Origin: Bryobacteraceae bacterium
GTDB taxonomy: Bacteria; Acidobacteriota; Terriglobia; Bryobacterales; Bryobacteraceae
DNA: 64,000 bases
NCBI GenBank assembly: GCA_026129905.1
Contig: JAHCHE010000002.1
Coordinates: 248,001 to 312,000, forward strand
Direction: 5' to 3'
Position numbers and translations under genes: made by a program. Below, piece by piece: positions 2,116 to 26,651 of the stretch; position 1 is the first letter of the stretch, and each line of letters opens with the position of its first letter. The notes under the pieces are model-generated. The model saw nothing but the letters and a program-made list of their open reading frames with translations, did no database searches and was not told where the DNA came from.

Positions 2116-2127
2116 GATTGGATCTCC

Positions 2128-3324: not shown

Positions 3325-3355
3325 ATGCCATTTCTCCTATGACTGCGCTAATCGA

Positions 3356-4465: not shown

Positions 4466-4468
4466 CGT

Positions 4469-6724: not shown

Positions 6725-7970
6725 GGACGGCGCCTCTGACCACGTCTTGAATCGCTTCCAGCGCGGCGCCGGTCGCATCCTGGACCGAGGCCATCACCTC
6801 TTCGGGCCGCCGCACGCACCCGGCCGAGTAGAGGCCCGCCCGGCCGCCGGCGCCCGGCAGGAATTGGAACTCGTCCCGGACGAAACCGGCCGGTAAACCG
6901 CCGCTTTGGGGCACGATGCCGGTAGCCAGGACGACCAAGGACGCCCGGTGCGAGCGCTTGCGGCCCTGGAGAGCGTCCTCGGCCGTCACGAGCAGATCGC
7001 CGTCCTCGGCGGCCTCCACCTTCGCGACCTTGCCCTTGATCAGCTTGATGCAGTCGTCGGCCGCCACCCGCGCGTAGAAATCCTCGAGCCTGCCGCCGGC
7101 GCGAATGTCGATGTAGAAGATCGAGACGTCGGCTTCCGGGCATTCCGTTCGCACGTAGGTCGCCTGCTTCAGCGAAGCGGCGCAGCAAACGGCGGAACAG
7201 TACGGCAGGTGGTTGTCGTCCCTCGATCCCGCGCACTGGACAAAGACCACCGACCGGGGCGGCCGGCCGTCGGAAGGCCGCAGGATGCGCCCGCCGGTCG
7301 GGCCGTCGCGCGCCGCCATCCGCTCCATGATCACGTTGGTGACGACATTGGGATGCCTACCGAAACCGAGGTTGTCGATCTTCGCGGCGTCGTAGGGCGC
7401 CCAACCCGTCGCGGCGATCACCGCGGCCACGTCGAAGGTCCGCCGCTCGACAGGCTGATCGAGGTCGATCGCGCCGTACCGGCAGGCGTCCACGCACGCG
7501 CGGCAGCCGTTGGGGCAGGCCGGGCGGTCGATTGCGTAGAGCGGAGGAAACGCGTTCGCCGCCGGGATGTAGGCGGCCTTCGTCTTCTTGAGCCCGTAGT
7601 TGAAGTCGTCCGGCCGCTCGGCGGGACAGGCCTCGGCGCAGGCCCCGCAGGCGGTGCACGCGGAAGTTACGAAGCGGGGCGCGATTTTCACCGTCGCCTG
7701 GTAGCTGCCTGGCGTTCCGGCAAGCGATTCGAGTTCGGCTTGCGTCAGGACGGTGATCGCGGGGTTGTTCCGGATGCGCTTGTAGTTGATCTCGAGGCCG
7801 CAGGCCGGCGGGCAGAGCTTCGGGAAATAGAGGTGGGTCCGGGTCACGCGGCCGCCCAGGAACGGCGACTTCTCGATGAGTACAACCTGGCGCCCGGCCT
7901 CGGCCGCCTCCACCGCCGCGGTGATGCCGGAGATGCCGCCGCCGACGACGAGTATGGCTCGGGCGCTCAT
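6717..7970 (-). CDS. qmoA: Quinone-interacting membrane-bound oxidoreductase subunit QmoA
   Basis: QmoA is the second HdrA-like flavoprotein of the Qmo complex, 417 residues. It starts MSARAILVVGGGISGITAAVEAAEAG (FAD Rossmann motif), carries one HdrA cysteine cluster region (CTACGACAEACPAERP) and a second set near CPNGCRACVDAC. It then shows FVQCAGSRDDNH and the YCSAVCCAASLKQ stretch. The ATG at 7970 overlaps the TGA of the YkgJ-type gene by four bases (ATGA), which supports this start over a further-upstream one. It works with QmoBC to hand electrons to AprBA. Confidence 0.94.
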   Translation of the reverse strand: MSARAILVVGGGISGITAAVEAAEAGRQVVLIEKSPFLGGRVTRTHLYFPKLCPPACGLEINYKRIRNNPAITVLTQAELESLAGTPGSYQATVKIAPRFVTSACTACGACAEACPAERPDDFNYGLKKTKAAYIPAANAFPPLYAIDRPACPNGCRACVDACRYGAIDLDQPVERRTFDVAAVIAATGWAPYDAAKIDNLGFGRHPNVVTNVIMERMAARDGPTGGRILRPSDGRPPRSVVFVQCAGSRDDNHLPYCSAVCCAASLKQATYVRTECPEADVSIFYIDIRAGGRLEDFYARVAADDCIKLIKGKVAKVEAAEDGDLLVTAEDALQGRKRSHRASLVVLATGIVPQSGGLPAGFVRDEFQFLPGAGGRAGLYSAGCVRRPEEVMASVQDATGAALEAIQDVVRGAVHG

Positions 7971-8752
7971 CGGCGGGCCTCCACGGGCTGGCGGATCTTC
8001 ATGGTTTTTTCCTTGAAAAGGCAAAACCGGAGCCATTGCATGGCGAACTCGAGCAGCTCGTCGTCGTCGGAACGGAGCGCTTCGACCCGCGCTTCGTCCA
8101 CGATAAATCGATCGAGAAATCTTGTTTCGAACACGAATCGCCGGAACCGGTCCAGGTCGTAGCAGGCCATGTAGAACATGTCCGTCTGCGCCGGCGTCAA
8201 CTCGGCGCGGTCCCAGAATTCGTCGAGCGTGAGCGACTTGAAGGAGGCGCCCATCATTTCGTACTCTTCGGCGCCCTGGCCGGCGGTCCAGTCCCGAACG
8301 CTCACCGGCGGGCCGGCGTCATGGCCGGCGCAGAAGTCCTCCCGGATCAGGAAATGAAACGCGGTGTCCTTCGGGGTGGGGTTGCGGGGATCGGCGACGC
8401 CCAGAGGATACATGCGGCAAGCCCAGGGCCGGTCGGCATAGACGCCGCAGCCTTCCGGCGTCACGAACGGGCAGGCGAGCCCTTCGGGATTCATCCGGAG
8501 GATGGGGACAGGGAACTTCTGCCCACGCGTGAACGGGGCGATCGCGTAGCGGGTCAGAAACTCCGACGAATCCAGTCCGAGCGCCTTCTTGAGCCGCAGG
8601 ACGTCGTATGGCGTTAGGACGATCGAGACGTCGCGGCAGCACTGGTTGAAGCAGGGCAGGTCCTTCCCGCAGCGGAAGGCGAAACGGTCGTCGCGGCTCA
8701 TGCGCGGGCAGTCGCGAAGGATCGATTCCTCGGTCAGCAGCTCAGCGGGCAC
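7967..8752 (-). CDS. YkgJ-family cysteine-cluster protein inside the apr-qmo operon
   Basis: A 261-residue protein with the YkgJ/UPF0153 type cysteine cluster. FRCGKDLPCFNQCCRDVS (about residues 26-43) is followed by LACPFVTPEGCGVY and WACRMYPLG. These cysteines probably bind a metal or Fe-S centre. It overlaps both neighbours (11 nt with the zinc-ribbon gene, 4 nt with qmoA), so it is translationally built into the apr-qmo operon. No catalytic role is known for the family. Assembly, maturation or redox service to AprBA/Qmo is an inference from position only. Confidence 0.8.
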   Translation of the reverse strand: MPAELLTEESILRDCPRMSRDDRFAFRCGKDLPCFNQCCRDVSIVLTPYDVLRLKKALGLDSSEFLTRYAIAPFTRGQKFPVPILRMNPEGLACPFVTPEGCGVYADRPWACRMYPLGVADPRNPTPKDTAFHFLIREDFCAGHDAGPPVSVRDWTAGQGAEEYEMMGASFKSLTLDEFWDRAELTPAQTDMFYMACYDLDRFRRFVFETRFLDRFIVDEARVEALRSDDDELLEFAMQWLRFCLFKEKTMKIRQPVEARR

Positions 8753-9029
8753 TTGCGGCCTCCTCGGGAAGGATGTTCTCGCGCATCGCTTCTTTCGACC
8801 AGACCGGCAGCGGCCCCGTCTCGCCAGTGGCGGGATCGAGCCGGAAGCGGTAGGACGCGGTGACGTCGAAGCGCTCGTTCATCCACGCCCAGCCCCGGAC
8901 AAAGTAGGGGCACTCGTCGTTAAAGCAAACGTACTGATACTCGCCGCTCCAACTGCTGAGCTGGGGATTGGCCCACCGGCTCATCGGAGTCCGGCAGTGG
9001 GGGCAGCGGGCGTCAACCGGTTGCGTCAT
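8742..9029 (-). CDS. Small zinc-ribbon-like protein between aprA and qmoA
   Basis: A 95-residue protein starting MTQPVDARCPHCRTPMSRW. CPHC near residue 10 and CFNDEC near residue 34 form a CxxC...CxxxxC arrangement like the Ogr/Delta or zinc-ribbon fold. The conserved-looking segment ECPYFVRGWAWM follows. The start at 9029 is preferred because the preceding in-frame residues are low complexity. It begins 58 nt after aprA and overlaps the next gene by 11 nt. Function is unknown; a small metal-binding accessory of APS reductase or Qmo is a guess from position. Confidence 0.7.
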   Translation of the reverse strand: MTQPVDARCPHCRTPMSRWANPQLSSWSGEYQYVCFNDECPYFVRGWAWMNERFDVTASYRFRLDPATGETGPLPVWSKEAMRENILPEEAASAR

Positions 9030-9087
9030 AAGAATCTCAAGGTAGAGCGGGCGGGACGGCGGCCGTCCCGCCCGCCGCTCCATCAGG

Positions 9088-11025
9088 TCATCCGCCGAGC
9101 AGCTCGTGCTCTTTGGGTTGCGGGAAGATGTGCAGGATCGGCCTGGTCAGCACCTCCCACTGGTCGGTGTTCGGATGGTACTTGCAGTTGGCGAACACGT
9201 GCCACTGCTCGTCGTCGATCTTGGGTTTGTCGGCGCGGTAGTAATAGCCGGGCCAACGGGTTTCCTCACGGAACAGCAGCGTCCGGACGTGCGCCTCGGC
9301 CTGCCAGGTGCGGTGAACGTTTTCCCAGCAGCGCATCAGCTCGTGGAGGTTGGACGCGGCGAGCTTCTCGGCGTCTTCCTTCAGGAACGCGAGCAGCTCG
9401 AGCGCTTTGTTCAAGAGCGACTCGTTGGTTGTGAACTGCGCGGTGATGCCGGCGGCGTACTCGTCCATGAGCTTCTGGAGGCGGTACATGTACATCCGCG
9501 GCTTAATGTAGTTGGGGTTGACCTCGGGGTCGGTGGTCGCGCCCTTGAACTGCTCATAGACGTCGAGCGGCCTCAGGATCTGTTCCTTCAGCGCTTCGAG
9601 CGCGGCGGCATCGAGGTTCGGCATCGTATTGTTGTCGACGACGAACTTGACGGCCGCTTTCGCCGCGGCGCGCCCTTCGGCGTGCGAGCCGGAGGAGAAC
9701 TTGTGGCTGGAAGCGCCGGAGGCGTCGCCGGCGCAGAACAAGCCGGGAACGGTGGACATGTGGGCGTAGCCCCAGAAGTACTCCTTCTTCGTCTCGTCGG
9801 TTTGCAGGTCCTCGGGACCGCTGACCCAGGCGCCGGAAGCGCCGGAGTGAGAGCCGATGAAGTACGGTTCAGCGGCCGCGATTTCCGAGCTGCGCTCTTC
9901 GGGCTGCACGTTGGTGCCGGCCCAGAGGATCGCCTGGGAAATGGTCATGTCGAGGAAGTCTTCCCACGCCTCGGACTCGAGCTCCTTCATCTTTTTCTTG
10001 TAGGCCTTGTCGTCGTCCTTGTAGGTGGTGGCGATCTTCTTGATGGCCTCCTCGGTGCGCATGTAGATGGGGCCTTTGCCCTCCATCACGTCAAGCATGC
10101 CGAGGTAGTTGCGCAGGTTGGCGGGAATCGGTTTCACGCGGCCGTAGGGGGCCCAGTTTTCCAACTCGGCTCTGCGTTCCACCATGTATTCGCCGCCCAT
10201 GGCGTTGGTGGCCCGGGATTTGAACAGCAGGAACCAGGCGCCCACCGGTCCGTACGCGTCCTTGAACCGCACGGGGATGAAGCGGACTTCCTGGCAGGTC
10301 ATCTCGGCGCCGGCCTTCAGAGTGAAGTAGGCCGAGGATCCGGAGTTCCATGGCGGATACCAGGCGCGGCCCATGCCCTCGCCGGAACTGCGCGGCTTGA
10401 ACACGTGCACGGCGCCGCCCATGGCGACCAGCGTGGCTTTCGCCTTGAAGACGTAGAACTTCTCCTCGCGGACGGAGAAGCCGACCGCGCCGGCGCACCG
10501 CTCGCCGTCCATCAGCGGGCCGACGATGAAGATGCGCTCGTAGATTTCGCCGACGGCCTTGCCGTTGCCGGCCAGCAGGGCGTTTTTCGCCGCCTCGGCG
10601 ACGACGACCTTGTAGGACTCGCCGTTGATCATGAGCTGCCAGCGGCCTTCGTGCACATAGTTGCCGTTCTCGTCCTTCCAAATGGGCAGGCCCCATTTTT
10701 CGAACAGGTGAACGGTGGAATCAACGTGGCGGGCGATGTTGGCCACGAGGTCTTCGCGGGTGACGCCCATCAGGTCGTTGCGGACGTAATCGACATAGTC
10801 TTTGACGGTGTTCTTGCCGTCCCTGAGACCGACGTACTGGTTGATGGCCGACAGGCCCATCGCTACCGCGCCGGAACGGTCGACCGCGGCTTTGTCGACC
10901 AGGGTGACCTTGAGTCCGTTCTGGCGGGCCCAGTGGGCCGCTTCCACCGCCGCCCCGCAGGCGGCCATGCCGCCGCCCAGGATCAGAAGATCGGTTTCCA
11001 CTACTATCGTTTCAAAGTTGGCCAT
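9088..11025 (-). CDS. aprA: Adenylylsulfate (APS) reductase subunit alpha
   Basis: AprA carries FAD and reduces APS to AMP and sulfite in the cytoplasm. The 645-residue length and the N-terminal FAD motif DLLILGGGMAACGAAVEAA (residues about 12-30) fit. Internal segments include GMGRAWYPPWNSGSS, EVRFIPVRFKDAYGPVGAW and LFCAGDASGASSHKFSSGSH. It follows aprB by 12 nt, the standard BA order. Electrons arrive from the Qmo complex encoded downstream. Sequence type (reducer or oxidiser AprA) needs a tree. Confidence 0.97.
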   Translation of the reverse strand: MANFETIVVETDLLILGGGMAACGAAVEAAHWARQNGLKVTLVDKAAVDRSGAVAMGLSAINQYVGLRDGKNTVKDYVDYVRNDLMGVTREDLVANIARHVDSTVHLFEKWGLPIWKDENGNYVHEGRWQLMINGESYKVVVAEAAKNALLAGNGKAVGEIYERIFIVGPLMDGERCAGAVGFSVREEKFYVFKAKATLVAMGGAVHVFKPRSSGEGMGRAWYPPWNSGSSAYFTLKAGAEMTCQEVRFIPVRFKDAYGPVGAWFLLFKSRATNAMGGEYMVERRAELENWAPYGRVKPIPANLRNYLGMLDVMEGKGPIYMRTEEAIKKIATTYKDDDKAYKKKMKELESEAWEDFLDMTISQAILWAGTNVQPEERSSEIAAAEPYFIGSHSGASGAWVSGPEDLQTDETKKEYFWGYAHMSTVPGLFCAGDASGASSHKFSSGSHAEGRAAAKAAVKFVVDNNTMPNLDAAALEALKEQILRPLDVYEQFKGATTDPEVNPNYIKPRMYMYRLQKLMDEYAAGITAQFTTNESLLNKALELLAFLKEDAEKLAASNLHELMRCWENVHRTWQAEAHVRTLLFREETRWPGYYYRADKPKIDDEQWHVFANCKYHPNTDQWEVLTRPILHIFPQPKEHELLGG

Positions 11026-11037
11026 TGTGATCCTCCG

Positions 11038-11478
11038 TTAGTGTTTCAGCGTGAAGACCTCGGGCAATCCCAGCGAAGCCGGCTCGGTGAACAGAGCGGG
11101 GCTCGCCAGGTCCGCGGGGCTTTCAAACCCGCCGTCGGGCGCTGCTTCGCCTTCGGGCGTGGTGCGGATCGGGAACTTGAACCGCTTGATCGTTCCGTTG
11201 CGGAACTTCACGGTCCACATGATGGAATCGGTGGAACGCATCGGCGTGGCGGACGCGCCCAACGGGACGAAGTCGGCATAGCCGCGAACCTCGACGGCTT
11301 GCGTCGGGCATATCTTGACGCAGTTGTAGCACTCCCAACACATCGTGACGTCGCGGTTGTACGCCTTCATCGTCACTTTGTCGAGCGCCATCAGATCATT
11401 CGGGCAAATGTGCTGGCAGGCGGTTTTGTCGAGCGCCTTGCACCCATCGCACTTTTCCGGATTGACGTAACTGGGCAT
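11038..11478 (-). CDS. aprB: Adenylylsulfate (APS) reductase subunit beta
   Basis: A 146-residue two-cluster ferredoxin subunit that relays electrons to AprA. The cysteine motifs CDGCKALDKTACQHICP and CWECYNCVKICPTQAVEV bind two 4Fe-4S clusters. The following segment YADFVPLGASATPMRSTDS matches the AprB tail that clasps AprA. Its start lies 20 nt after the stop of the MarR-type gene, so the regulator and the whole apr-qmo-dsr operon may share a promoter upstream of 12104. Confidence 0.97.
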   Translation of the reverse strand: MPSYVNPEKCDGCKALDKTACQHICPNDLMALDKVTMKAYNRDVTMCWECYNCVKICPTQAVEVRGYADFVPLGASATPMRSTDSIMWTVKFRNGTIKRFKFPIRTTPEGEAAPDGGFESPADLASPALFTEPASLGLPEVFTLKH

Positions 11479-12303: not shown

Positions 12304-14031
12304 TTAACCTCTCTTATTCGCGGTGATCAGCACCGTTCCACCAGATAGCAGCGTCGGCTCGACGCCGGAGAAGCCCAGCGCTTCCATCGCCTTCGCCGCT
12401 CTTTCCACGGACCAGGCCCGGCAACCGCCGCGCACCACGTGGCGGCCCAGCGTGGCCAGCGTCATCGCCGCGGACGGCGGAACGCCGGCGGGGGCGAATG
12501 CGTCGTGCAGCGCCAGCAGACCTCCAGGCCGGATCGCGGCCGCCGCCTCCAGCGCGCGCTGGATCTGGCCTCGTCGCGAGAAGGCGAGGAGGCTGGAGAA
12601 CAGGATGGCGTCGCACGAGCCGGGCCGCACCAGGTCCGCAGGCGGGCTGTGCGTCTGCCAGGGATTGGACGCCTCGATCTCCAGTGCGGGCCACCGCCGC
12701 CGCAGCGCGGCCCGGTACGCATCGCCTCCCCACCCGATCACCTGAAGGCGGCGTCGCCGCGCCAGGTTGAGCTTCTCGGCCACGCGGGGCGCGGCGAAGC
12801 GGGCGAGCGATTCGCACGCCTGCCGGAACAACTCCTCGTTGCCGTTAGTTGCCGCGTCGCGGCAGCCGTTCAAAGCGTATCGGGCAAGCTGGTCGGCGGG
12901 CTCGGACTGGGCGGCCAGGTAAAGCAACGCGGGCCGCAGCGTCCCGGGCGAGCCGGTCCGCAGGTAGGCGGACGCGAGTTCGAGGTTCCGATAGCCGTCC
13001 GGCCCGTATTCCAGCAGACCCAGTGACACCAGGACCTGAAGGATCTCGTCGAGCGCGAACGTGTTGAGGCCCCGGGAGAGGGCGATTTCGGACACCGACG
13101 TGAACTCCTCGAGCTGGTCGAACAACTCCAACAAGAGGGCCAACCGCAGCGCCTGTGTTCCGAGCCCGGCCGTCGCCAGTTGGAGCAACTGGTCCGGCGC
13201 GGGCGCCGGTTGCCGGGGAAGCCTCTGCCGGGCCAGGTCGCGCCGGCTCTGGATGAACTTTTGGCGCAACCGTACCACCTCGCCGATGACGAGCGTGGCC
13301 GGCGGATCGAGTCCGGCGCGCTCCACCTCGGCGGCGATGGTTTCCAGCGTGCCGGCGACCACCCGCTCGCTGGCCCAGAAGGCGCTCTGGATCATCGCCG
13401 CCGGCGTGCGGGGATCGCGTCCGTGCGCGATGAGTTGTTGCGCGATCCGTCCCACGCTGCGCACAGCCATCAGGAACACGAGCGTGTCGATCCGCGCCAA
13501 AGCGCCCCACTGGATTCGGTCCCGATTGGGGCCCGCCTCGTGGCCGGTGACGACGGTCACCGACGACGCCCAGTCGCGATGCGTTACCGGGATGCCGGCG
13601 CAGGCGGGCGCGGCCAGGGCGGAGGTCACGCCGGGAATAATCTCGAACGGAACGCCGTGTTCGGCCAGGTATTCGGCTTCCTCGCCTCCGCGCCCAAACA
13701 GGAACGGATCGCCGCCTTTGAGCCGCACCACGATCTTGTTCTCGCGGGCCTTGCCGGCCAGCAGGCGGTGGATCTCATCCTGGCGGGAGTCGTGGCGTCC
13801 CAGCGGCTTGCCCATGTAGATGCGCTCGGCCGAGGGTTTCACCAGGGCAAGGGCCTCTTCCTGAATCAGCCGGTCGTAGACCACGACATCGCATATTTTC
13901 AGTAGTTCCGCGGCTTTCACGGTGAGCAGTTCCGGGTGTCCCGGCCCCGCCCCCACCAGGTATACTTTTCCCGTCCGCGATTCCGCGCTCGCCGAATCGA
14001 TGCTCATTCGCCGCGTCGCGATCCTCCGCAT
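12304..14031 (-). CDS. cobA: Uroporphyrinogen-III C-methyltransferase fused to a second methyltransferase-like domain
   Basis: The N-terminal part (to about residue 260) is a SUMT: KVYLVGAGPGHPELLTVKA, VVRLKGGDPFLFGRGGEEA and GIPVTHRDWASSVTVVTGH are all present. It makes precorrin-2, the precursor of siroheme needed by DsrAB. The remaining 300 residues are not the usual HemD. They hold a winged-helix-like segment (LLELFDQLEEFTSVSEIAL) and then a class I methyltransferase-like segment ending GGLLALHDAFAPAG, resembling O-methyltransferases with a dimerisation domain. The start is either ATG 14031 or ATG 14007; the longer TTG extension is unlikely. Its place upstream of the apr-qmo-dsr block suits siroheme supply. 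Confidence 0.85.
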   Translation of the reverse strand: MRRIATRRMSIDSASAESRTGKVYLVGAGPGHPELLTVKAAELLKICDVVVYDRLIQEEALALVKPSAERIYMGKPLGRHDSRQDEIHRLLAGKARENKIVVRLKGGDPFLFGRGGEEAEYLAEHGVPFEIIPGVTSALAAPACAGIPVTHRDWASSVTVVTGHEAGPNRDRIQWGALARIDTLVFLMAVRSVGRIAQQLIAHGRDPRTPAAMIQSAFWASERVVAGTLETIAAEVERAGLDPPATLVIGEVVRLRQKFIQSRRDLARQRLPRQPAPAPDQLLQLATAGLGTQALRLALLLELFDQLEEFTSVSEIALSRGLNTFALDEILQVLVSLGLLEYGPDGYRNLELASAYLRTGSPGTLRPALLYLAAQSEPADQLARYALNGCRDAATNGNEELFRQACESLARFAAPRVAEKLNLARRRRLQVIGWGGDAYRAALRRRWPALEIEASNPWQTHSPPADLVRPGSCDAILFSSLLAFSRRGQIQRALEAAAAIRPGGLLALHDAFAPAGVPPSAAMTLATLGRHVVRGGCRAWSVERAAKAMEALGFSGVEPTLLSGGTVLITANKRG

Positions 14032-14193
14032 ACATGATATCACTACCTTAAAGTCCTGTTTGAACAAAGTGCGAATCGTCTTGGAATGCGGCGGGCGTTC
14101 GTGGTATGCTTTTTCAGGACTAAGAGAGCCGAAGTAACGTTGGTATGCGCAGGAGAAAGAGAATGAAACGATGCGGGTTCTTCTGCCGCTCGC

Positions 14194-16869: not shown

Positions 16870-18342
16870 GTGAAGGGCCCTCTGGCGGTTCCGCGACTGG
16901 TAGTGGCCGGCGCGTCGGGCAGTTCCGGCAAGACGCTGGTGTCCCTCGGCCTGGCGCTCGCCGCGCGTTCGGCCGGCGTGGCGGTGCGCGCCTTTAAGAA
17001 AGGGCCGGACTACATCGACGCGGCATGGCTCTCGTGGGCCACGGGCCATCCGGCGCGGAACCTTGACACGCAATTGATGGGGTTTCCGGCCGCCGCCGCG
17101 TGCTTCGCGCGGCGCGCCGTCCCGGATGGCGTGAACGTGGTGGAAGGCAACCGGGGACTGTTCGACGGTTCGGACGCGCGGGGAACGCACAGTACGGCGG
17201 AACTCGCCAAGTTGCTGGATGCGCCGGTGGTTCTGGCGCTCAACGCCGCCAAGATGACGCGGACGGCCGCGGCATGGGTGCTTGGCTGCCAGCGAATGGA
17301 TCCGGCTCTGGAGGTGACGGGGGTCATTCTTAACAATGTCGCAACCGGGCGGCATGAGCGGGTGGCCCGCGAGGCGATCGAGTCGGTATGCGGCGTCCCT
17401 GTCCTGGGCGCGATCCCCCGCATCGCGGATGAGGCGATGCTTCCGCAACGCCATCTCGGTCTGGCGCCTCCGGAAGAGTTTCACCACGCCGACGCGCTGG
17501 CAAAGCTTTTGCGGACGGCGTACGGTCACGTGGACCTGGAACGGCTGCTGGCGATTGCCCGGCGGGCGCGTCCGATGTGGCTGGAGCCATTTCCGCGGCA
17601 TACGAACTTGCGCCCGTCCAGGGGCGGCGCGAGCCCCCGGATCGGTTATCTCCGGGATTCGGCGTTTACGTTTTATTACCCGGATAACCTGGAAGCCCTC
17701 GAAGACGCCGGGGCGCGCCTGGCCGCGATTTCCTCGCTCGATGCAGGCCGGCTGCCGGAGGATCTGGACGCGTTGTACATCGGCGGAGGCTTCCCGGAAA
17801 CGCACGCCGCCCGGCTGGCGGCCAATCGCGGTTTCCTTGCCAGTGTCGCGGCCGCCGCCGGCCGCGGATTGCCCATCTACGCCGAGTGTGGAGGCTTGAT
17901 GCTGCTGGCCAGGGCGATTCACTGGCAGGGGCGGGCGTACGCGATGGCGGGCGTTCTGCCGTTCGACGTGAAGGTCCATCCCACGCCGCGAGGCCACGGC
18001 TACGCCGAACTGCGCGTCGACCGAACGAACCCGTTTTTCCCGGTGGGGCTGACTCTGAAGGGGCACGAATTCCACTACTCGGCGATCGCGCTCGATGGCG
18101 CCGCGCCGGCGACCGCGTGCGCCGTCTCGCGCGGGACGGGTTGTTTCGATCGCCGGGACGGGGTGCTCGCCGGCAACGTCTGGGCAGGCTACACGCACCT
18201 TCACGCGGCGGCCACGCCCGAATGGGCGGAAGGAATGGTTGATGCGGCTTTCGCACGCTCCCCCGGGCGCGCCGGCGCCGGATACATCGACACAGCAGTC
18301 TCAGACACGGAAATCTTGGTTAAGGAGGTTCTAATTCAATGA
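16870..18342 (+). CDS. dsrN: Siroheme amidase DsrN (CbiA-type cobyrinate a,c-diamide synthase family)
   Basis: A 490-residue glutamine-dependent amidotransferase. The N-terminal P-loop part has [18 protein letters not shown] and [13 protein letters not shown]. The C-terminal class I glutaminase-like part has [14 protein letters not shown], the nucleophile region [11 protein letters not shown], and a late histidine in GHEFHYSAI. In dsr loci this enzyme amidates siroheme for DsrAB. The GTG start at 16870 lies 7 nt after dsrD and the stop overlaps sat by four bases. Confidence 0.92.
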
Positions 18343-19601
18343 GTAAACTGGTGCTCCCGCACGGGAGCCAGGAACTGAAACCCCTTCTGCTCGACGGTCA
18401 GGCGCGAGCGGACGAATTGGCCAAGGCCGAGGGACTCAAGCGGGTCCCGATGACCAGCCGGGAAACGAGCGACCTCATCATGATGGGGATCGGCGCGTTC
18501 ACCCCGCTCGACGGGTTCATGGGCCGGGAGGACTGGCAGGGCGTCTGCGACGACTACGCCATGCCGACAAAGAAAGGCCTGTTCTGGCCGATTCCGATCA
18601 CCCTTTCAGCCGAGGAGAGCTACGCGGCTTCGATCGCCATTGGCGAAGAAGTGGCGCTCTGGGACGTCGAGACCGAGTCGATCATGGGCACGATGAAGGT
18701 CGCCGAGAAGTACTCGATCGACAAGGAGCACGAGTGCAGGCAGGTCTTCCGCACGGTCGATCCGGCGCACCCCGGCGTCCAGAAGGTGATGGAACAGGGC
18801 GCGGTGAACCTGGCCGGACCGGTGAAGGTCGTTTCCGAGTCGTACTATCCGCAGATGTTCGAGGGCATCTACCAACGGCCGGTCGAAGCGCGCAAGATCT
18901 TCGAGGAGCGCGGCTGGAACACCGTAGCCGCTCTTCAACTCCGCAACCCCATGCACGGCTCTCACGCGTACCTGGCCTGGATCGCCATCGAAGTCTGCGA
19001 CGGCGTCTACGTTCACCAGCTCGTCGGCAAGTTGAAGCCGGGCGACATTCCGGCCGAGGTCCGCGTGAAGGCCATTGACGCGCTGGTCAACAAATATTTC
19101 CGCAAGGACCGCGTGGTGCAGGGCGGCTATCCGATGGAGATGCGCTACGCCGGACCGCGCGAAGCGCTGCTGCATGCGGTGTTCCGTCAGAACTACGGCT
19201 GCTCGCACCTGATCGTGGGGCGCGATCACGCCGGCGTAGGCGACTACTACGGCCCGTTCGACGCGCAGAAGATCTTCAGCGAGATCCCGCCCGACGCCCT
19301 GCTGCTGCGGCCCCTGGCGATGGACTGGACGTTCTACTGCTACGAGTGCGGCTCGATGGCGTCGATGAAGACCTGCCCGCACGAGAGCAAAGCCGTCATC
19401 GACGAGAACGGCGCCTACAAGGGCGGCGCCCGGTTGTTGCTTTCCGGGACCATGCTGCGCAAGCTGATGAGCGAGGGCAAGCCGGTGCCGCCGGAATTCT
19501 CCAAGCCCGAGGTCATCGCCGTTTTGAAGGAATACTACGACCAACTGGAGGAGAAGGTGGAGGTGAAACTCCACGGTTTCGCCACCGGCACAAAGAGCTG
19601 A
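18339..19601 (+). CDS. sat: Sulfate adenylyltransferase (ATP sulfurylase)
   Basis: Activates sulfate to APS, the substrate of AprBA, or makes ATP from APS in the oxidative direction. The 420-residue single-domain form fits the dissimilatory/archaeal type. ATP-binding motifs [13 protein letters not shown] (near residue 203) and GRDHAGVG (near 294) are intact. A cysteine-rich C-terminal segment ([15 protein letters not shown]) is of the kind that binds zinc in some homologues. The ATG overlaps the dsrN stop and has an AAGGAGG site. A strong nested hairpin follows the stop. Confidence 0.97.
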
Positions 19602-19701: not shown

Positions 19702-20250
19702 ATGACTGCGACAGCGGCCACTGAGCCGATCGAGAAGACCATCCACCGGTCGGCGCTCCGGCTGGAACGCGGCGACCTGACCCAGCTTGAAGTGGACGCC
19801 ATCGTTTTCTACGCCAAGGAGACTCTGGAACTCGGCTCCGGCTTCGGGGGAGCGATCCACGCGCGGGGCGGCGAGACGATCAAGAAAGAACTGGCCGCGC
19901 TCGGCCCGGTGGCGGTAGGCGAGGCGGTGACCACCACCGCCGGCAGGCTGCCCGCGAAGTGGATCGTCCATGCCTGCGGCCCGAAGTTTCAGGAGCCGGA
20001 CATGGAAGCGAAGCTGCGCCGGTGCATGTTGTCGGCCCTGCGGGCGGCCGAGGAGCGAGGGGCGAAAACCATCGCCTTTCCCCCGATGGGGGCCGGCTTC
20101 TATGGAGTGCCGCTCGAACGGTGCGCCCGCGCGATGCTGGAAGCAATCCGCGAATTTCTGGCCGCGGGCGGCGCGCTGGAAGCCATTGTCGTCTGCGTGG
20201 CGGACCGGCGCGAGTACGGGGCGTTTCGCCCGCTTTTCGAGGGGCTATAA
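19702..20250 (+). CDS. Divergent macro-domain protein
   Basis: A 182-residue single macro domain. ERGDLTQLEVDAIVFYA aligns with the usual strand leading to NAAN, but here the position reads FYAKE. The loop GSGFGGAIHARGG and the second phosphate loop FPPMGAGFYGVPLE are kept. Macro domains bind ADP-ribose and related adenosine diphosphates; loss of the canonical asparagine suggests altered or no hydrolase activity. It is co-directional, 11 nt from the next gene, and sits between sat and the DsrMK-like genes. A link to nucleotide by-products of sulfate activation is speculation. Confidence 0.85.
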   Translation: MTATAATEPIEKTIHRSALRLERGDLTQLEVDAIVFYAKETLELGSGFGGAIHARGGETIKKELAALGPVAVGEAVTTTAGRLPAKWIVHACGPKFQEPDMEAKLRRCMLSALRAAEERGAKTIAFPPMGAGFYGVPLERCARAMLEAIREFLAAGGALEAIVVCVADRREYGAFRPLFEGL

Positions 20251-20261
20251 GGGAGGACGCG

Positions 20262-20951
20262 ATGCACGAACCCAGTCCGTTTCTGGATTTCGCGCAAGAC
20301 AAGCTGCAGATCGGGGCGCTGTTGTTCATGGCCCTGGTCTATTCGCTAAAGATCCGCTGGATACTCAAGTTCCCGGCCGGCCGCGACCGCCAGGCGCCGA
20401 GCGGGAATCCGGAGAAAAACGCCTCACGGGGCGCCTGGTACTCGCTGCTGAACATCGCCATGCCGTGGGCCATGCCCAGCACCCGCAACCGCCCGCTCTT
20501 CTACGCGCAATTTGTCGCGTTTCATCTCGGCGTGGCGGCTTCCATCCTGATGTCGTTCCTGATACCATACGCGCCGCGGACCATCGCCTCGGCCCCGGCC
20601 GTCCTGGCGCTCCAGGTCGTCTTCGCCATGGCCTGCATCGTTGGGATTCTGCGGCTGTACCGGCGGATCGCCGATCCGTACATCCGCGCCATCAGTTCGC
20701 CCGACGATTACTTTTCGCTCGCCCTGCTGATCGTCTGGCTGGGCTTCAGCTTTCTGGCGGCGCCCAACCGGCCCGCGGAAGGCGAACGCGCGTTGATCGC
20801 CTATTTCCTGCTGACTGCGTTCTTCCTCGTGTACGTTCCGTTCAGCAAGATTTCGCACTACCTCTACTATCCGTTCGCGCGATGGTACCTCGGCAAGACG
20901 CTAGGGCATCGCGGCGTGTACCCCGTCCAACGCCAGGAAGCCGGCGCCTAG
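20262..20951 (+). CDS. DsrM/NarI-like membrane subunit, first copy
   Basis: A 229-residue protein with about five transmembrane helices (for example IGALLFMALVYSLKI and FVAFHLGVAASILMSFLI). It resembles the gamma-subunit-type cytochrome b partner of HdrD-like Fe-S proteins (DsrM, TmcC, HdrE). Histidines in the helices could bind heme. The closing helix region VPFSKISHYLYYPFARWYLG matches the family. The ATG at 20262 lies 11 nt after the macro gene. Its partner is the Fe-S receiver fusion 12 nt downstream. Confidence 0.8.
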   Translation: MHEPSPFLDFAQDKLQIGALLFMALVYSLKIRWILKFPAGRDRQAPSGNPEKNASRGAWYSLLNIAMPWAMPSTRNRPLFYAQFVAFHLGVAASILMSFLIPYAPRTIASAPAVLALQVVFAMACIVGILRLYRRIADPYIRAISSPDDYFSLALLIVWLGFSFLAAPNRPAEGERALIAYFLLTAFFLVYVPFSKISHYLYYPFARWYLGKTLGHRGVYPVQRQEAGA

Positions 20952-20963
20952 AAGGAGAAGCGC

Positions 20964-22697
20964 ATGCCCCCAGCCAGGTCCTACAAAGCGCAAAAAGTCA
21001 TCGACCGGTTCCAGCAGAAGCTCAACCGGCAGGCGATGCTGTCGCTCGCCGCCTGCGTGCATTGCGGCCTGTGCACGGACCAGTGCCATTACGTGCTTGC
21101 GAACCCCGGCGACCCCACCTACGCTCCGGCCTACAAAGCCGACCGCTTGCGAAAGCTTTTCAAGGCGCACGTGGATTGGACCGGGCGCCTCATCCCGCGG
21201 TGGGTCGGCGGCCGCAGCGTCTATTCCGACGAGGAACTGGAAGAACTTAAGGATGTCGTTTTCGGCAAGTGCACCAACTGCCGCCGCTGTTCGCTCAACT
21301 GCCCGATGGGCGTCGACATGGCTTCCTTCAACCGTCTGGCGCGCGGGCTGCTGGTGCATGTGGGCGTGATGCCCGAGGGCGTCGCGGTGGTCGCCAAGGA
21401 TCAGTGGGAAATCGGCAACCAGATGGGCGTGCTGAAGGAAGACTACCTCGAGACGCTTCAGTGGATGGAAGAGGAGCTGCAATCGGAATACAACGATCCC
21501 TCGATCCGCATTCCGGTGGACAAGAGGGACGCCGAGATCGTCTACGCGATCAATCCCCGCGAGGCGAAGTACGACCCGCGGACGATCGGCGAAGCGGCGG
21601 CCATCTTCCATTTCGCCGGCGAGAACTGGACCATGGCCAGCGAGGGCTGGGACATGACCAACTTCGGGTTGTTCAACGGCGACGACGAACTCGGCGCGGC
21701 GTGCGCGGCGCGCGTCTACGACGCGGTGGAAGGCTTGCGCGGCCGCAAGCTCGTCGTTTCCGAATGCGGGCACGGATACCGCTCGACGCGCTGCGAGGGA
21801 CCGAACTGGGCGCGGCGGGACCTGAAGTTCGAAATGGAAAGCTCCGTCGTCACCATGCTCCGCTACATCAAGGAAGGCCGGATCGCGGTGGACAAGACGC
21901 GCAACCCGCTTCCGGCCACCTACCACGACTCGTGCAACAACGCGCGGAGTTGCGGCATGACCGAGGAGCCCCGCGAACTGCTCCGCCTGGTCACCACGGA
22001 TTTCCGCGAGATGTACCCGAACCGGGCCGAGAACTTCTGCTGCACGGGCGGGGGCGGAGCGATGTCGATGTCCGAGTACGCCCCGCGCCGCCTGAAGTCG
22101 GCGAAGGTCAAGGCGGACCAGCTCCGGGCGACCGGAGCGAAGGTGGTGGTCACCTCCTGTCACAACTGCGTGGACGGCCTGTTCGACCTCATCCGCCATT
22201 ACAAGCTGGACATGCAGGTGAAGCTCCTGGTGAGCCTGGTCGCCAATGCCTTGACGCCGCCGGAGCGCCGGATCAAGCGGCGGCCGCTGGAGGGCTTCCG
22301 CATCCTGGTGATCGACGACGAGCCCGACGTCCGGATCTACCTGTCGAAGCTCTTCGAGGAGAACGGATGCGCGGTGACCGACGCGCCGGACGCCAACCAG
22401 GCCATGCGCGCCATTCGCGCCCAGCCGCCCGATCTCATCACCCTGGACCTCGTCCTGCCCAAGAAGACGGGCGAAAAGCTCTATTGGGAACTGAAGAAGG
22501 ACGAGCGCTTCGCGCGCATCCCGATCGTGGTCGTTTCCGGCTACGCGGCCATCGACCATCCGAAGATCGACTTCCACAAGTTCATCGCCGAAAAAGCTCT
22601 TCCGCCTCCGGAGGGCTTCCTGGAAAAGCCGGTGGACGTCGAGAAGCTGATCGAAACCGTCCATCAGTCGCTGCTGGAAAGCCGGTTCTCCGGCTAG
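20964..22697 (+). CDS. DsrK/HdrD-like Fe-S oxidoreductase with C-terminal receiver domain
   Basis: A 577-residue fusion. Residues about 25-115 hold two ferredoxin clusters (CVHCGLCTDQC and CTNCRRCSLNCP). Two CCG-type cysteine-rich motifs follow (TYHDSCNNARSCG with FCCTGGGG, then TSCHNCVDG), as in HdrD, TmcB and DsrK, which bind the catalytic non-cubane cluster. From about residue 445 a full CheY-like receiver begins: LVIDDEPDVR, the phosphoacceptor strand LITLDLVLP, VVVSG and FLEKPVD. The receiver closely resembles the stand-alone one at 23763. A response-regulator domain on a respiratory Fe-S subunit implies phosphorylation control. There is no stop between the parts and no sign of a frameshift artefact. 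Confidence 0.9.
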   Translation: MPPARSYKAQKVIDRFQQKLNRQAMLSLAACVHCGLCTDQCHYVLANPGDPTYAPAYKADRLRKLFKAHVDWTGRLIPRWVGGRSVYSDEELEELKDVVFGKCTNCRRCSLNCPMGVDMASFNRLARGLLVHVGVMPEGVAVVAKDQWEIGNQMGVLKEDYLETLQWMEEELQSEYNDPSIRIPVDKRDAEIVYAINPREAKYDPRTIGEAAAIFHFAGENWTMASEGWDMTNFGLFNGDDELGAACAARVYDAVEGLRGRKLVVSECGHGYRSTRCEGPNWARRDLKFEMESSVVTMLRYIKEGRIAVDKTRNPLPATYHDSCNNARSCGMTEEPRELLRLVTTDFREMYPNRAENFCCTGGGGAMSMSEYAPRRLKSAKVKADQLRATGAKVVVTSCHNCVDGLFDLIRHYKLDMQVKLLVSLVANALTPPERRIKRRPLEGFRILVIDDEPDVRIYLSKLFEENGCAVTDAPDANQAMRAIRAQPPDLITLDLVLPKKTGEKLYWELKKDERFARIPIVVVSGYAAIDHPKIDFHKFIAEKALPPPEGFLEKPVDVEKLIETVHQSLLESRFSG

Positions 22698-22710
22698 TGA
22701 GGGATCCCCG

Positions 22711-23766
22711 ATGGCGGATGCCGGCCTGAAGCCCTGCCGCAACCTGATCGACGAGGTCCCGTGTTTTATCTCGGTGCAGGACCGCGATCTGCGGATCATC
22801 GAGGCCAATCGTACGTTCGTCGAGAGCTTCGGCTCGCGAATAGGGGCGCACTGCTACGAGGTATACAAGCGGCGGAGCGACCGGTGCCCCGACTGTCCCG
22901 TGCTGGAAACCTTCGACGACGGCAAGCGCCACGCGGACGAGCACGTCTGGATCGACAGCTCCGGCAAGGAGATGTACGTCGTCGTGCACACCTCCCCGAT
23001 CCGCGATTCGCTCGGCGAGATCACGGCGGTGATGGAAGTTTCCGACGATATCACGGAACTCCGCACCTTGCAGGACAAACTGGCCGCGCTCGGCGGCCTC
23101 GTTAGCAGCATCGCGCACAGCATCAAGAACATGCTCGAAGGTCTGCGCGGCGGCGTTTACATCGTGAACCTCGGCCTGCGCGACAACAACCAGCGCGACA
23201 TCCGCACCGGCTGGGAGATGGTCGAGAGGAACGTCGGGCGGCTGTCGGCCATGATCCTCGACATGCTCTACTGCTCCAAGGACCGGGCGCCGCGCCGGCT
23301 GCCCGTCTCCGTTTCGGCGGTGGCAAAAGAGGTCGCGCAGTTGTTCGCGCCGCGCGCCGCCGAGCGTTCCATCCGCCTGGATGCGGAGATCGCCGGCGAA
23401 GCGCTGACCGTCCCGGGCGAGCCCAAAGACGTTCACTCGCTTATTTCGAACCTGCTGGCCAATGCCATCGACGCGTGCGCCGCCGACGAGAGCGACGACA
23501 AGGAATCCCGCGTCGTCGTCCGGGTTCTCTCGGAAGGCAACCATGCGGTCGTCGAAGTGGAAGACAACGGACCCGGAATGGACGACGAGACCCGCGCCCG
23601 GCTGTTCAGCCGGTTCTTTTCCACCAAGGGCGGCCTGGGCACCGGTCTGGGACTGATGGTGGCGCACAAGGTGGCCACCGAGCACGGCGGAACCATCGCT
23701 GTGCGATCCGCTCCCGGTGAAGGAGCGACTTTCACCGTGCGGCTTCCGATGGAGGTTCATCAATGA
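22711..23766 (+). CDS. Cytoplasmic PAS-domain sensor histidine kinase with Cys-rich PAS
   Basis: A 351-residue kinase without transmembrane segments. An N-terminal PAS domain (residues about 8-115) contains CYEVYKRRSDRCPDCPV, three cysteines suited to bind a redox cofactor or metal. The H-box is SIAHSIKNMLEGL (about 133-145). HATPase boxes are LLANAIDACA, VEDNGPGMDDE and GTGLGLMVAHKVA. The gene lies 13 nt after the receiver fusion and overlaps the next receiver gene (ATGA). It probably phosphorylates both receivers in response to cellular redox or sulfur state. Confidence 0.92.
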   Translation: MADAGLKPCRNLIDEVPCFISVQDRDLRIIEANRTFVESFGSRIGAHCYEVYKRRSDRCPDCPVLETFDDGKRHADEHVWIDSSGKEMYVVVHTSPIRDSLGEITAVMEVSDDITELRTLQDKLAALGGLVSSIAHSIKNMLEGLRGGVYIVNLGLRDNNQRDIRTGWEMVERNVGRLSAMILDMLYCSKDRAPRRLPVSVSAVAKEVAQLFAPRAAERSIRLDAEIAGEALTVPGEPKDVHSLISNLLANAIDACAADESDDKESRVVVRVLSEGNHAVVEVEDNGPGMDDETRARLFSRFFSTKGGLGTGLGLMVAHKVATEHGGTIAVRSAPGEGATFTVRLPMEVHQ

Positions 23767-24152
23767 AGAAGATCCTGGTTGTGGACGACGAGCAGGACGT
23801 CCGCGTGTACCTGACGCGGCTGTTCGAAGAAAACGGCTACCAGGTCTCCTGCGCCGGCGACGGCGACAAGGCTCTCGATGCGCTCGGCGCCGACAAGCCC
23901 GATCTCATCACGCTCGACATCTCGATGCCCCACAAGTCCGGGGCGAAATTCTATCGCCAGGTCCGGTCGGAGCCGGAATTGAGCGGCATTCCGGTCGTAC
24001 TGGTGACTGGCGTCACCGGTCCCACCGGGGATCCGGCCGACACCGAACGATTCTACAGCACGCGGCGCGGCGTTCCCCGCCCGGACGGCTTTGTCGCCAA
24101 ACCGATCGACCGGGACGAAATGATCGCCGTCGTCAAGCGGCTTATCGGGTGA
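23763..24152 (+). CDS. Stand-alone receiver-domain response regulator
   Basis: A 129-residue single CheY-like domain: ILVVDDEQDVRVYL, the phosphoacceptor strand LITLDISMP, VVLVTG and FVAKPID. It has no DNA-binding output. It is nearly collinear with the receiver fused to the upstream Fe-S protein, including an insertion before the last strand (RRGVPRPDGFVAKP against ALPPPEGFLEKP), so the two arose by duplication. It could act as a phosphate sink or dock onto the second DsrMK-like module immediately downstream. Confidence 0.9.
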   Translation: MKKILVVDDEQDVRVYLTRLFEENGYQVSCAGDGDKALDALGADKPDLITLDISMPHKSGAKFYRQVRSEPELSGIPVVLVTGVTGPTGDPADTERFYSTRRGVPRPDGFVAKPIDRDEMIAVVKRLIG

Positions 24153-24156
24153 CCCA

Positions 24157-25047
24157 ATGGCTATCGTCTTATCCTTTGCTATTTATGGCGCGGCGCTGGT
24201 ATTTATTCTCGGCTGCGCCATGCGGGCATGGAAGTATGCGCGCATGCCCGTTCACCTCAGGTGGGAACTCTACCCGGTTCCGCACGAGGAGCCCGAGCTG
24301 GTGGGACACGGCGGCTCGTCCTTCGAGACGCTGAACTGGTGGAACAAGCCGGCGCGCTTTCACCTCTGGGGCGAGGTGCGGTTCATGGTTCCCGAGATGG
24401 TGTTCCTCAAGGGGCTTTGGGAATTCAACCGGCGGCTGTGGCTGTGCTCGTTTCCGTTTCACTTTGGACTTTACCTGCTGGCGGCCGCGGCGGCGCTCCT
24501 GTTGGTAACGCCCGAGCGATGGTCTTGGGCATATGAGGCCACGGCGGTCGCCGGTTCGGCGCTCGCCATTGGCGGCGCGGCGGGGCTGCTGATCCGCCGG
24601 CTGGCCACGCGCGAGTTGCGGATCTACACCAGGCCCGGGGACATCTTTAACCTTGCGTTTTTCATCGTGACGCTGTGCCTGCTGCTGGCCGCCTGGGCCT
24701 CGCAGCCGTCCGGAACGCCCGGACTGCGCACGATTCTTGGGAGCCTGCTGACGTTCGATTCCGCCGTCCAGGTTCCGCCGTTGCTGGCGGCCGGCTTGGG
24801 TCTTGCGGCCCTGCTGGCGGCGTACATACCCTTCACCCATATGTCGCATTTCATCGCCAAGTACTTCACGTACCACTCCGTGCGTTGGGACGATTCCTCC
24901 GTCTTCCGGGATCCCGACCTGCCGCGCAAGATCGCCCAGTACCTATCGTACCGGCCGGCGTGGTCGGCGCCGCACATCGGCGCGAATGGGACGAAAACCT
25001 GGGCTGACGTGGCCGCCGCCAATCCGGCGCGCGAGGGAAAGCGATGA
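24157..25047 (+). CDS. dsrM: DsrM/NarI-like membrane subunit, second copy
   Basis: A 296-residue membrane protein with about five or six helices, starting with an uncleaved helix (LSFAIYGAALVFILGCAM). Segments such as PFHFGLYLLAAAA and PFTHMSHFIAKYFTYHSVRWDD carry histidines placed like heme ligands in NarI/DsrM. The cytoplasmic piece MVFLKGLWEFNRRLW is typical of DsrM-like proteins. Its stop overlaps the start of the DsrK-like gene (ATGA), the usual MK coupling. Assignment to true DsrM rather than TmcC/HmcE is uncertain because dsrJOP are not adjacent. Confidence 0.78.
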   Translation: MAIVLSFAIYGAALVFILGCAMRAWKYARMPVHLRWELYPVPHEEPELVGHGGSSFETLNWWNKPARFHLWGEVRFMVPEMVFLKGLWEFNRRLWLCSFPFHFGLYLLAAAAALLLVTPERWSWAYEATAVAGSALAIGGAAGLLIRRLATRELRIYTRPGDIFNLAFFIVTLCLLLAAWASQPSGTPGLRTILGSLLTFDSAVQVPPLLAAGLGLAALLAAYIPFTHMSHFIAKYFTYHSVRWDDSSVFRDPDLPRKIAQYLSYRPAWSAPHIGANGTKTWADVAAANPAREGKR

Positions 25048-26651
25048 AGCAACCGGACAGCCTGAACGAAATGTCACGCGAGGAGCGTTCCCCGCTGGCG
25101 CACCTGGAGAACGAGGATCTGATGCCGCTGCCGGCGCCCCTCGATTCGCCCGCGAAGGACCACAACTGGACGGCGCTCTCCGAGCAGACCCGCGAGCGCT
25201 ACGAGTGTGGCCTGGACGACACCTGCGCGGTGAGCGTGCCAAAGCCGAAAAACCGCCAGGAGGAGGACGAACTCGTCGCGAAGTTCCTCTCCGGCCTGGA
25301 CAAGCTTTTCACTCAGGAAAACAACTGGACGTTCCTCCAGCCGCTGGTCCTCACGATGGAGCACTGCGCGCAGTGCCAGACCTGCTCGGAGGCCTGCCAC
25401 ATCTTTGAGGCCAGCGGCGGCAACGAGCTGTACCGTCCCACGTACCGCTCGGAAATCCTCCGGCGGCTCTATTTCAAGTACGTTCAGGGCGGAGGGCTGC
25501 TATCGGCATGGCAACACGGGGATATCCGTCTCAACTGGCCGCTGGTGGCGCGGCTGATCGAACTGTCCTATCGCTGCAACCTCTGCCGGCGGTGCGCGCA
25601 GACCTGCCCCATCGGAGCGGACAACGGACTCGTGGCGCACGAGCTACGCAAGCTGTTCAGCCAGGAAATGGGCATCGCGGCCAAAGAGCTTCACGACAAC
25701 GGCACCATGTTGCAGCTTAAGGCCGGCTCGTCCACCGGCATGAACGCCGAAGCGGTGAAGGACAACATCGACTTCATCGACGAGGACATCAGCGAGAAGA
25801 CCGGCATCGCGGTGAAGACGCCGTGGGATGTCGAAGGGGCCGACGTTCTGCTGATCCACAACGCCGGCGAAATCCTGGCCTGGCCCGAGAACCCGGGCGC
25901 GTTCGCGCTGATCCTCGATGCGGCCGGCATCTCCTGGACGCTGTCCTCGGAGCTGGCCGCCTACGACTCGGTGAATTACGGTCTCTGGTACGACGACGCG
26001 CAGTTCGCGCGCGTTGCCGTCAAGCACGCCGAGGCGGCGCGCAAGCTCAAAGTGAAGAAGATCGTCCTGGGCGAGTGCGGGCATGCGCACAAGGCGCTCG
26101 CCGTCATCGCCGATCGCGTGCTGACGGGCGAACTGGCGATTCCGCGCGAAAGCTCGATGACCCTGCTGCGCGACATCGTCATGAGCGGCCGGCTGACGCT
26201 CAATCCCTCGCGCAACGACTTTCCCGTTACCCTGCATGACCCGTGCAACCTCGTGCGGCTGATGGGCGTGGTAGAGCCGCAGCGGGAGATCGTGCGCGCC
26301 ATCTGTCCCCGGTTTCGCGAGATGGAGCCGCACGGCGTCGACAACTTCTGCTGCGGCGGCGGCAGCGGCTTCGCGATCATGAGCGGCCACAACTTCCAGG
26401 ACTGGCGCTTCCACGTCTCGGGCCGGAAGAAGCTGGAGCAGATCCTCAACGCTTTCTCCGATTGCCTGGAACCGGAGACGCCCAAGTACATCTGCGCGCC
26501 GTGCAGCAACTGCAAGGGCCAGTTCCGCGACATGCTGGCCTACTATCGGCTCTGGGACAAGCACCGTATCCTGTACGGCGGCCTGGTCGAGCTGATCGTG
26601 AACGCCATGACGGACGTGAAGCCCGGCTTCATCGAATGGGAATGGCATTGA
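25044..26651 (+). CDS. dsrK: DsrK/HdrD-like Fe-S oxidoreductase, second copy without receiver
   Basis: A 535-residue Fe-S protein with ferredoxin motifs CAQCQTCSEACH (near 111-122) and CNLCRRCAQTCPIG (near 178-190). CCG-type motifs LHDPCNLVRLMG with NFCCGGGSG and CAPCSNCKGQF form the HdrD-like catalytic cluster region. In sulfur-metabolising organisms DsrK is thought to reduce the DsrC trisulfide with electrons from DsrM. A long acidic N-terminal extension (about 100 residues) precedes the first cluster. It pairs with the overlapping membrane gene upstream. Confidence 0.83.
   Translation: MKQPDSLNEMSREERSPLAHLENEDLMPLPAPLDSPAKDHNWTALSEQTRERYECGLDDTCAVSVPKPKNRQEEDELVAKFLSGLDKLFTQENNWTFLQPLVLTMEHCAQCQTCSEACHIFEASGGNELYRPTYRSEILRRLYFKYVQGGGLLSAWQHGDIRLNWPLVARLIELSYRCNLCRRCAQTCPIGADNGLVAHELRKLFSQEMGIAAKELHDNGTMLQLKAGSSTGMNAEAVKDNIDFIDEDISEKTGIAVKTPWDVEGADVLLIHNAGEILAWPENPGAFALILDAAGISWTLSSELAAYDSVNYGLWYDDAQFARVAVKHAEAARKLKVKKIVLGECGHAHKALAVIADRVLTGELAIPRESSMTLLRDIVMSGRLTLNPSRNDFPVTLHDPCNLVRLMGVVEPQREIVRAICPRFREMEPHGVDNFCCGGGSGFAIMSGHNFQDWRFHVSGRKKLEQILNAFSDCLEPETPKYICAPCSNCKGQFRDMLAYYRLWDKHRILYGGLVELIVNAMTDVKPGFIEWEWH

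Follow-up and report, generated by a model that had tools for sequence, protein, structure and literature searches.

A receiver domain fused to a respiratory iron-sulfur subunit and the candidate kinase that would control it

What does a complete receiver (REC) domain do at the end of a protein that carries electrons? The question is raised by six open reading frames (ORFs) in a 64,000-nucleotide (nt) stretch of a Bryobacteraceae genome (contig JAHCHE010000002.1, positions 248,001 to 312,000; hereafter the window), which encode two pairs of membrane and iron-sulfur (Fe-S) subunits, designated M1-K1 and M2-K2, around a soluble histidine kinase and a single-domain (bare) receiver. The Fe-S subunit of the first pair ends in a REC domain (K1-REC). 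We found this fusion in 28 genomes, that of the window and 27 others, belonging to at least six phyla. Direct control of the electron flow through K1 by the adjacent kinase, exerted by phosphorylation, is the best-supported explanation that we can offer and the one towards which, by a slight preference, we incline. The features at issue are the following.

20262 to 20951, plus strand: M1, NarI/HmcE/TmcC-like membrane cytochrome b subunit of 229 amino acids (aa); NCBIfam HmcE E=1e-15 and TmcC E=8e-12, both below cut-off; NarI-like by Pfam, with a match slightly under the cut-off
20964 to 22697, plus strand: K1-REC, Fe-S/CCG core, linker and REC; Pfam Fer4, CCG and Response_reg
22303 to 22674, plus strand: receiver part of K1-REC, residues 447-570; Pfam Response_reg at 447-566, E=6e-17
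22711 to 23766, plus strand: soluble PAS histidine kinase, 351 aa; Pfam PAS and HATPase_c
23763 to 24152, plus strand: bare REC, 129 aa, phospho-acceptor D52; Pfam Response_reg alone, E=5e-21
24157 to 25047, plus strand: M2, NarI-like membrane subunit, 296 aa; PF02665 E=2e-9, conserved His
25044 to 26651, plus strand: K2, DsrK-like Fe-S/CCG subunit of 535 aa with no REC; DsrK 326 bits against a cut-off of 400

The fused receiver and its neighbouring kinase

The original prediction described six coupled or overlapping genes, a complete receiver at the K1 C-terminus with phospho-acceptor aspartate and lysine intact, and a cytoplasmic kinase; all of this was borne out. The gaps between M1, K1-REC, kinase, bare REC, M2 and K2 are 12, 13, -4, 4 and -4 nt. 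Residues ~1-435 of K1 hold two [4Fe-4S] motifs and a CCG domain, followed by a linker and by the REC at about 445-570. The core shows the signatures of the CCG/HdrD-type electron-transfer superfamily, that is, two CX2CX2CX3C motifs and CX34CCX38CXXC (PF02754, Fer4). Residue conservation was read from an alignment of 17 fused loci, in which K1 cysteines 31-41, 103-113, 324, 359-360, 399 and 402 are conserved, the eight ferredoxin cysteines and the CCG cysteines being invariant wherever the alignment is readable. The active site of the fused REC is complete (D451, D452, phospho-acceptor D495, S525 and K555), and its acidic pair, phospho-acceptor, S/T525 and K555 are kept in 17/17 aligned loci, with no loss of the phospho-acceptor among these homologues; the residues expected of a phosphorylatable receiver (acidic pair, D, T/S and K) are likewise present in the bare RECs. 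An AlphaFold model of K1-REC (predicted local distance difference test, pLDDT, 83; predicted template modelling score, pTM, 0.68) gives the REC a DivK/CheY-like fold and the core a fold resembling the CCG region of EtfD. The partner subunit M1 has about five transmembrane segments and two invariant histidines (H88, H199).

The window kinase has no predicted transmembrane segment and carries the histidine of the dimerisation and histidine phosphotransfer domain together with the N, G1, F and G2 boxes (HATPase_c E=3e-27). Its phospho-accepting histidine (H136) is invariant in 17/17 aligned kinases, in which N and G boxes are also seen, and its structure model (pLDDT 84) has an HK853-type kinase fold. 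All 16 kinases in which the PAS domain is complete share four PAS cysteines (C18, C48, C59 and C62), and related kinases beside Hmc-like complexes display the PAS motif C-X(10-11)-C-X2-C too; such a pattern appears suited to redox or metal sensing. The window kinase has one PAS domain, and nearly all of its relatives have two with the same cysteine pattern.

Joint occurrence of fusion, kinase and sibling receiver

The fusion extends beyond this contig, to genomes of Acidobacteriota, Planctomycetota, Armatimonadota, Bacteroidota/Ignavibacteriota, Poribacteria and Abyssobacteria; 16 fused loci (54-79% identity) were recovered from named GTDB genomes and 11 further ones from a 396-genome Acidobacteriota sample, while the full fusion is carried by 5/200 genomes of the same family, and the nearest named relatives of K1-REC are found in Bryobacterales/Solibacteraceae Acidobacteriota. 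K2 is 62-84% identical to K2 of the other loci. An assembly artefact or chance fusion is ruled out by the 27 further loci, with K1 frameshifted in a single aligned one (L062). That frameshift (L062:10001-11713), which splits K1-REC in a metagenome-assembled genome, is itself probably an assembly error.

The co-occurrence of the HdrD/DsrK-REC architecture with the PAS kinase, anticipated from the window, extends to the other genomes: a homologue of the window kinase, scored at 240 bits or more, adjoins K1 in 26/27 loci with the fusion and in 0/26 without it (Fisher P=3e-14, for loci that are not phylogenetically independent), and at the sole fused locus with no adjacent kinase the contig ends inside K1-REC. 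The bare REC follows the same distribution (20/27 fused, 0/26 unfused). So do the genes of sulfate reduction, AprA being encoded by 27/28 fused genomes and by 0/27 unfused ones, and DsrA by most of the former and 1/27 of the latter; the only fused genome with no AprA is 67% complete, and some AprA genes are split or lie at contig edges. In a tree of K1 cores the eight nearest unfused K1 proteins, all from genomes negative for AprA and DsrA, nest inside the fused clade (100/99, 100/98), and in these relatives REC, kinase, bare REC, AprA and DsrA are all absent together. The simplest history would be one fusion, after which REC, kinase, bare REC and the sulfate-reduction genes were lost jointly, two independent fusions being a possible alternative.

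The two receivers of the window appear to be siblings. They are mutual best matches (107 bits, the next REC of the same genome scoring 57 and 63), and the best NCBIfam model for both is NF045717, the 'DVU0259 family' (bare 108 bits, fused 85 bits, both short of the 160-bit cut-off). In a tree that took in 48 other receivers of the same genome (two of the sequences, from L008 and probably L164, being poor translations), a single clade (98/99) unites the fused and bare RECs with the receivers that adjoin K2 and with the one next to an Hmc-like complex, and those 48 lie outside it. Helix alpha1, the recognition helix that faces the kinase, is identical at 12/16 positions between fused and bare REC and at no more than 6/16 between these and any of the 48. 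The joint presence and absence of kinase and fusion, together with this shared helix, make signalling from the kinase to the Fe-S subunit well supported, and they support a picture in which one dedicated kinase would serve two sibling receivers, one of them within the redox subunit. No bare REC of the subfamily was found near K1-REC at L072-L074 and L121, nor any nearby at L069; at L072-L074 and L121 the fused REC is therefore the only evident local partner of this subfamily for the kinase. Elsewhere, bare RECs of the subfamily adjoin M2-K2 (L068:8972-9478, L071:6267-6734, L114:10310-10684, L145:139-513 and L146:1570-1947), which suggests that at such loci K2 may have its own receiver in trans. 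L114 also has an extra divergent kinase with a weak HATPase_c match and a receiver inserted between K1-REC and the usual kinase (L114:7351-8802).

How the fused receiver may act

We propose that M1-K1 works as a two-subunit oxidoreductase on the menaquinol side, of the Hmc/Tmc/DsrMK superfamily, in which electrons would pass from heme b in M1 to the [4Fe-4S] clusters of K1 and on to its CCG site, a non-cubane Fe-S centre; the most probable thiol/disulfide/trisulfide partner at this site is a protein of the DsrC family. K1 would double as a response regulator: the adjacent cytoplasmic kinase would phosphorylate D495 of the fused REC as well as the bare REC, and phosphorylation of the former would alter K1 activity, partner docking or assembly, which would give direct and rapid control over the electron flow into sulfite reduction. 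The bare REC might act in trans on M2-K2 or as a phosphate sink. The phosphotransfer, the direction of its effect, the signal sensed and the pairing of the fused form with DsrC are the parts of this scheme that we infer.

DsrC is suggested by the unfused relatives, since 22/26 unfused M1-K1 loci, in DsrAB-less Acidobacteriota, have a DsrC-family gene with both C-terminal cysteines beside them, in most cases transcribed the same way and no more than 720 nt distant. These genes point to DsrC as the likely cytoplasmic redox partner of M1-K1 and, by extension, perhaps of its fused form. For Tmc, too, electrons have been proposed to reach the sulfite pathway, perhaps via DsrC (PMC4215793; likewise PMC10553843). 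Together with the co-occurrence of the fusion with AprA and DsrA, the DsrC genes lend indirect support to the gating of electron flow to sulfite reduction. Minimal DsrC-M1-K1 sets occur in Acidobacteriota devoid of DsrA and AprA (L124-L126, L130, L131, L133-L144, L147 and L148) and may represent a DsrC-linked respiratory module that is independent of sulfite reductase. At L124-L126, L130 and L131 a classical OmpR-type regulator and a HAMP/HisKA membrane kinase take the place of the fused REC system and lie directly upstream of M1 (domains checked at L125 and L131).

Several observations weigh against direct phospho-control. The AlphaFold model yielded no confident interface between REC and K1, and the linker varies in length across loci and is partly modelled at pLDDT below 50, so that a loosely tethered REC fits as well as a rigid allosteric one. 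In the window kinase the Pfam HisKA match is absent, and the residue after the kinase histidine is S/T/G/A rather than acidic, both of which call for caution over autokinase activity. No DsrC gene was found in the fused loci themselves. Finally, nine AprA-positive genomes of the same family have no K1-REC, which means that K1-REC is not essential for sulfate reduction.

The same elements could be wired in the opposite direction, the REC holding the kinase at the respiratory complex, whose redox load the kinase would then sense, with the bare REC (and Rrf2 in relatives) carrying the output to gene expression. The PAS cysteines would fit such a redox sensor, the bare REC is common enough in the fused loci to serve as output, and PMC10924467, citing Keon 1997, presents rrf1 and rrf2, downstream of hmc in D. 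vulgaris, as regulators of hmc expression. The original prediction saw no transcription-factor output; this is true of the six genes here, but an Rrf2-type transcription factor gene is found in 13/27 fused loci, so that there may also be a transcriptional branch. We nevertheless regard the reversed wiring as unlikely, given that every catalytic residue of the fused REC is kept in the aligned copies, as expected of a phospho-acceptor and not of a mere dock, that a nearby bare REC is missing at L069, L072-L074 and L121, and that the six-gene unit of the window includes no transcription factor.

Less probable still is a buffer, in which the fused REC would drain phosphate from the kinase and sharpen the output of the bare REC, K1 catalysis being unaffected. 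Phosphate-sink circuits in which two receivers share one kinase are known, and two related RECs with very similar kinase-facing helices beside a single kinase would suit one; yet a sink need not be covalently attached to an Fe-S electron-transfer subunit, and it makes little sense at L072-L074 and L121, with no output receiver nearby. As REC domains can serve as dimerisation modules, the fused REC might be a relic or a structural element for assembly or stability of the complex while the kinase controls something else, as its variable linker and surface loops would allow, but the conservation of phospho-acceptor, acidic pair, T/S and K across at least six phyla and the joint absence of kinase and REC render this the most doubtful of the alternatives.

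Direct phospho-control of K1 would have consequences beyond this locus. Cells of many sulfate-respiring bacteria may switch a respiratory enzyme directly, bypassing gene expression, and the fusion offers a directly testable model of post-translational control of anaerobic respiration with a short list of candidate proteins. Apart from this, the DsrC-M1-K1 sets of DsrAB-less Acidobacteriota suggest a respiratory module that is linked to DsrC and stands outside sulfite reduction.

Genomic setting and comparison with known systems

The window comes from contig C12 of a genome of 8.57 Mb and contains a sulfate-reduction gene set, with the following features around the six-gene unit.

1027 to 11478, minus strand: dsrB, dsrA, qmoC/B/A, aprA and aprB, the dsrAB portion at 1027-3324; NIR_SIR domains, DsrA 589 bits, qmoC and aprAB above cut-off
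18339 to 19601, plus strand: sat (ATP sulfurylase), upstream neighbour; PF01747 E=1e-79
19702 to 20250, plus strand: macro-domain protein, 182 aa, 11 nt upstream of M1; Pfam PF01661 E=4e-29

On the plus strand just before the unit lie a dsrN/cobB-type gene, sat and the macro-domain gene, so that the local order reads sat, macro, M1, K1-REC, kinase, REC, M2, K2 and an NDH-2-like gene. The position of sat as upstream neighbour links the M1-K1 unit to sulfate activation. The macro-domain gene belongs to the unit, extending it by one gene upstream; with 21/27 fused and 1/26 unfused loci, the macro-domain protein is a conserved companion of M1-K1, and at L076:4944-5525 its gene accompanies M1-K1 in the absence of REC and kinase. 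A scan for promoters and terminators was uninformative, with no sigma-70-like promoter and terminator-like sites at chance level. Adjoining the aprAB/qmo cluster, the frame at 12304-14067 fuses a uroporphyrin-III methylase-type domain to an O-methyltransferase dimerisation domain.

Both pairs had been assigned to the DsrMK type. This stands for K2, which is closest to DsrK (326 bits, against 188 for TmcB and 164 for HmcF), and not for M1-K1, which is closer to HmcE/F and TmcC/B (K1: HmcF 340, TmcB 300, DsrK 246 bits); none of these scores exceeds the NCBIfam cut-offs of 750 (HmcF), 735 (TmcB) and 400 bits (DsrK, NF045796). By sequence, then, the unit is one Hmc/Tmc-type pair with a REC and one DsrK-type pair. 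Membership in any of the established complexes was rejected: for Hmc proper K1 falls short and no cytochrome c or NrfD gene is present in the unit, for Tmc proper K1 again falls short and a TmcA-like gene is absent from the unit, and for DsrMKJOP both K1 and K2 fall short and DsrJ, DsrO and DsrP are not among the neighbours.

The Hmc and Tmc complexes of Desulfovibrio and relatives, a comparison that rests on NCBIfam models and published papers, share with M1-K1 a homologous cytochrome b and CCG Fe-S pair and have, like the window unit, kinases and response regulators beside the complex, as documented for Desulfobacterota (PMC5109826). The receivers of the window unit match best the DVU0259 family. 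DVU0259 lies, as we take it, in the tmc region of D. vulgaris. Unlike Hmc and Tmc, the window unit has no genes for a periplasmic cytochrome, NrfD or TmcD, it carries its REC on the CCG subunit itself, as a fusion, and it has another M-K pair downstream. Same-phylum relatives encode an Hmc-like complex, running from a CCG subunit to NrfD fused to a class III cytochrome c (L051:6765-13993 and L149:237-7784), after which come a PAS kinase and either one bare REC or two. The kinases and single-domain receivers that adjoin Hmc and Tmc complexes have hitherto been interpreted as regulators of gene expression; a receiver of the same subfamily joined covalently to a redox subunit is evidence from nature that such receivers make contact with the complex. 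We advance, tentatively and with somewhat less confidence than the control of K1 alone, the broader idea that the Fe-S subunit is a response regulator through which a redox-sensing kinase would switch membrane electron flow to DsrC post-translationally, and that the bare receivers next to Hmc, Tmc and DsrMK2 would exert such control in trans.

With DsrMK and DsrMKJOP, the menaquinol:DsrC-trisulfide oxidoreductase, the window pairs share subunit architecture and occurrence in the same genomes; K2 is closest to DsrK, and the DsrC-family genes adjoining unfused K1 relatives are a further likeness. K1, by contrast, matches HmcF best, DsrK has no REC, and the genome has a separate canonical DsrK (G000:C12:243990-245444, 737 bits), distinct from K1 and K2 and encoded, as is DsrC, just left of the window. 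At L074 an apparent dsrMKJOP set is found a few kb downstream of the M1-K1REC-kinase unit, with an RsbRD_N-domain protein encoded between the kinase of that unit and the set (L074:13350-13862). Extra M-K pairs similar to the window unit, the dsrM2K2 paralogues, are described for sulfur-metabolising peatland Acidobacteria in the accessible part of Hausmann et al. 2018 (PMC6018796), where neither receiver nor kinase is mentioned, unlike in the window unit. They probably correspond to M2-K2.

No REC fused to DsrK, HdrD, HmcF or TmcB is reported in the literature searched, which leaves out most subscription papers; the association of kinases and receivers with Hmc/Tmc is known, and the novelty lies in the covalent fusion and in its conservation, which is both wide and coupled. 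The closest parallel in design is provided by CheB and by the GGDEF/EAL response regulators, in which a REC is covalently joined to an enzyme and controlled by a kinase, as in K1-REC. The outputs of those proteins are signalling enzymes and their REC is mostly N-terminal, whereas in K1-REC the receiver is C-terminal and the output is a respiratory electron-transfer subunit. If its proposed control by the kinase is true, the repertoire of response-regulator outputs would extend to an energy-conserving respiratory enzyme.

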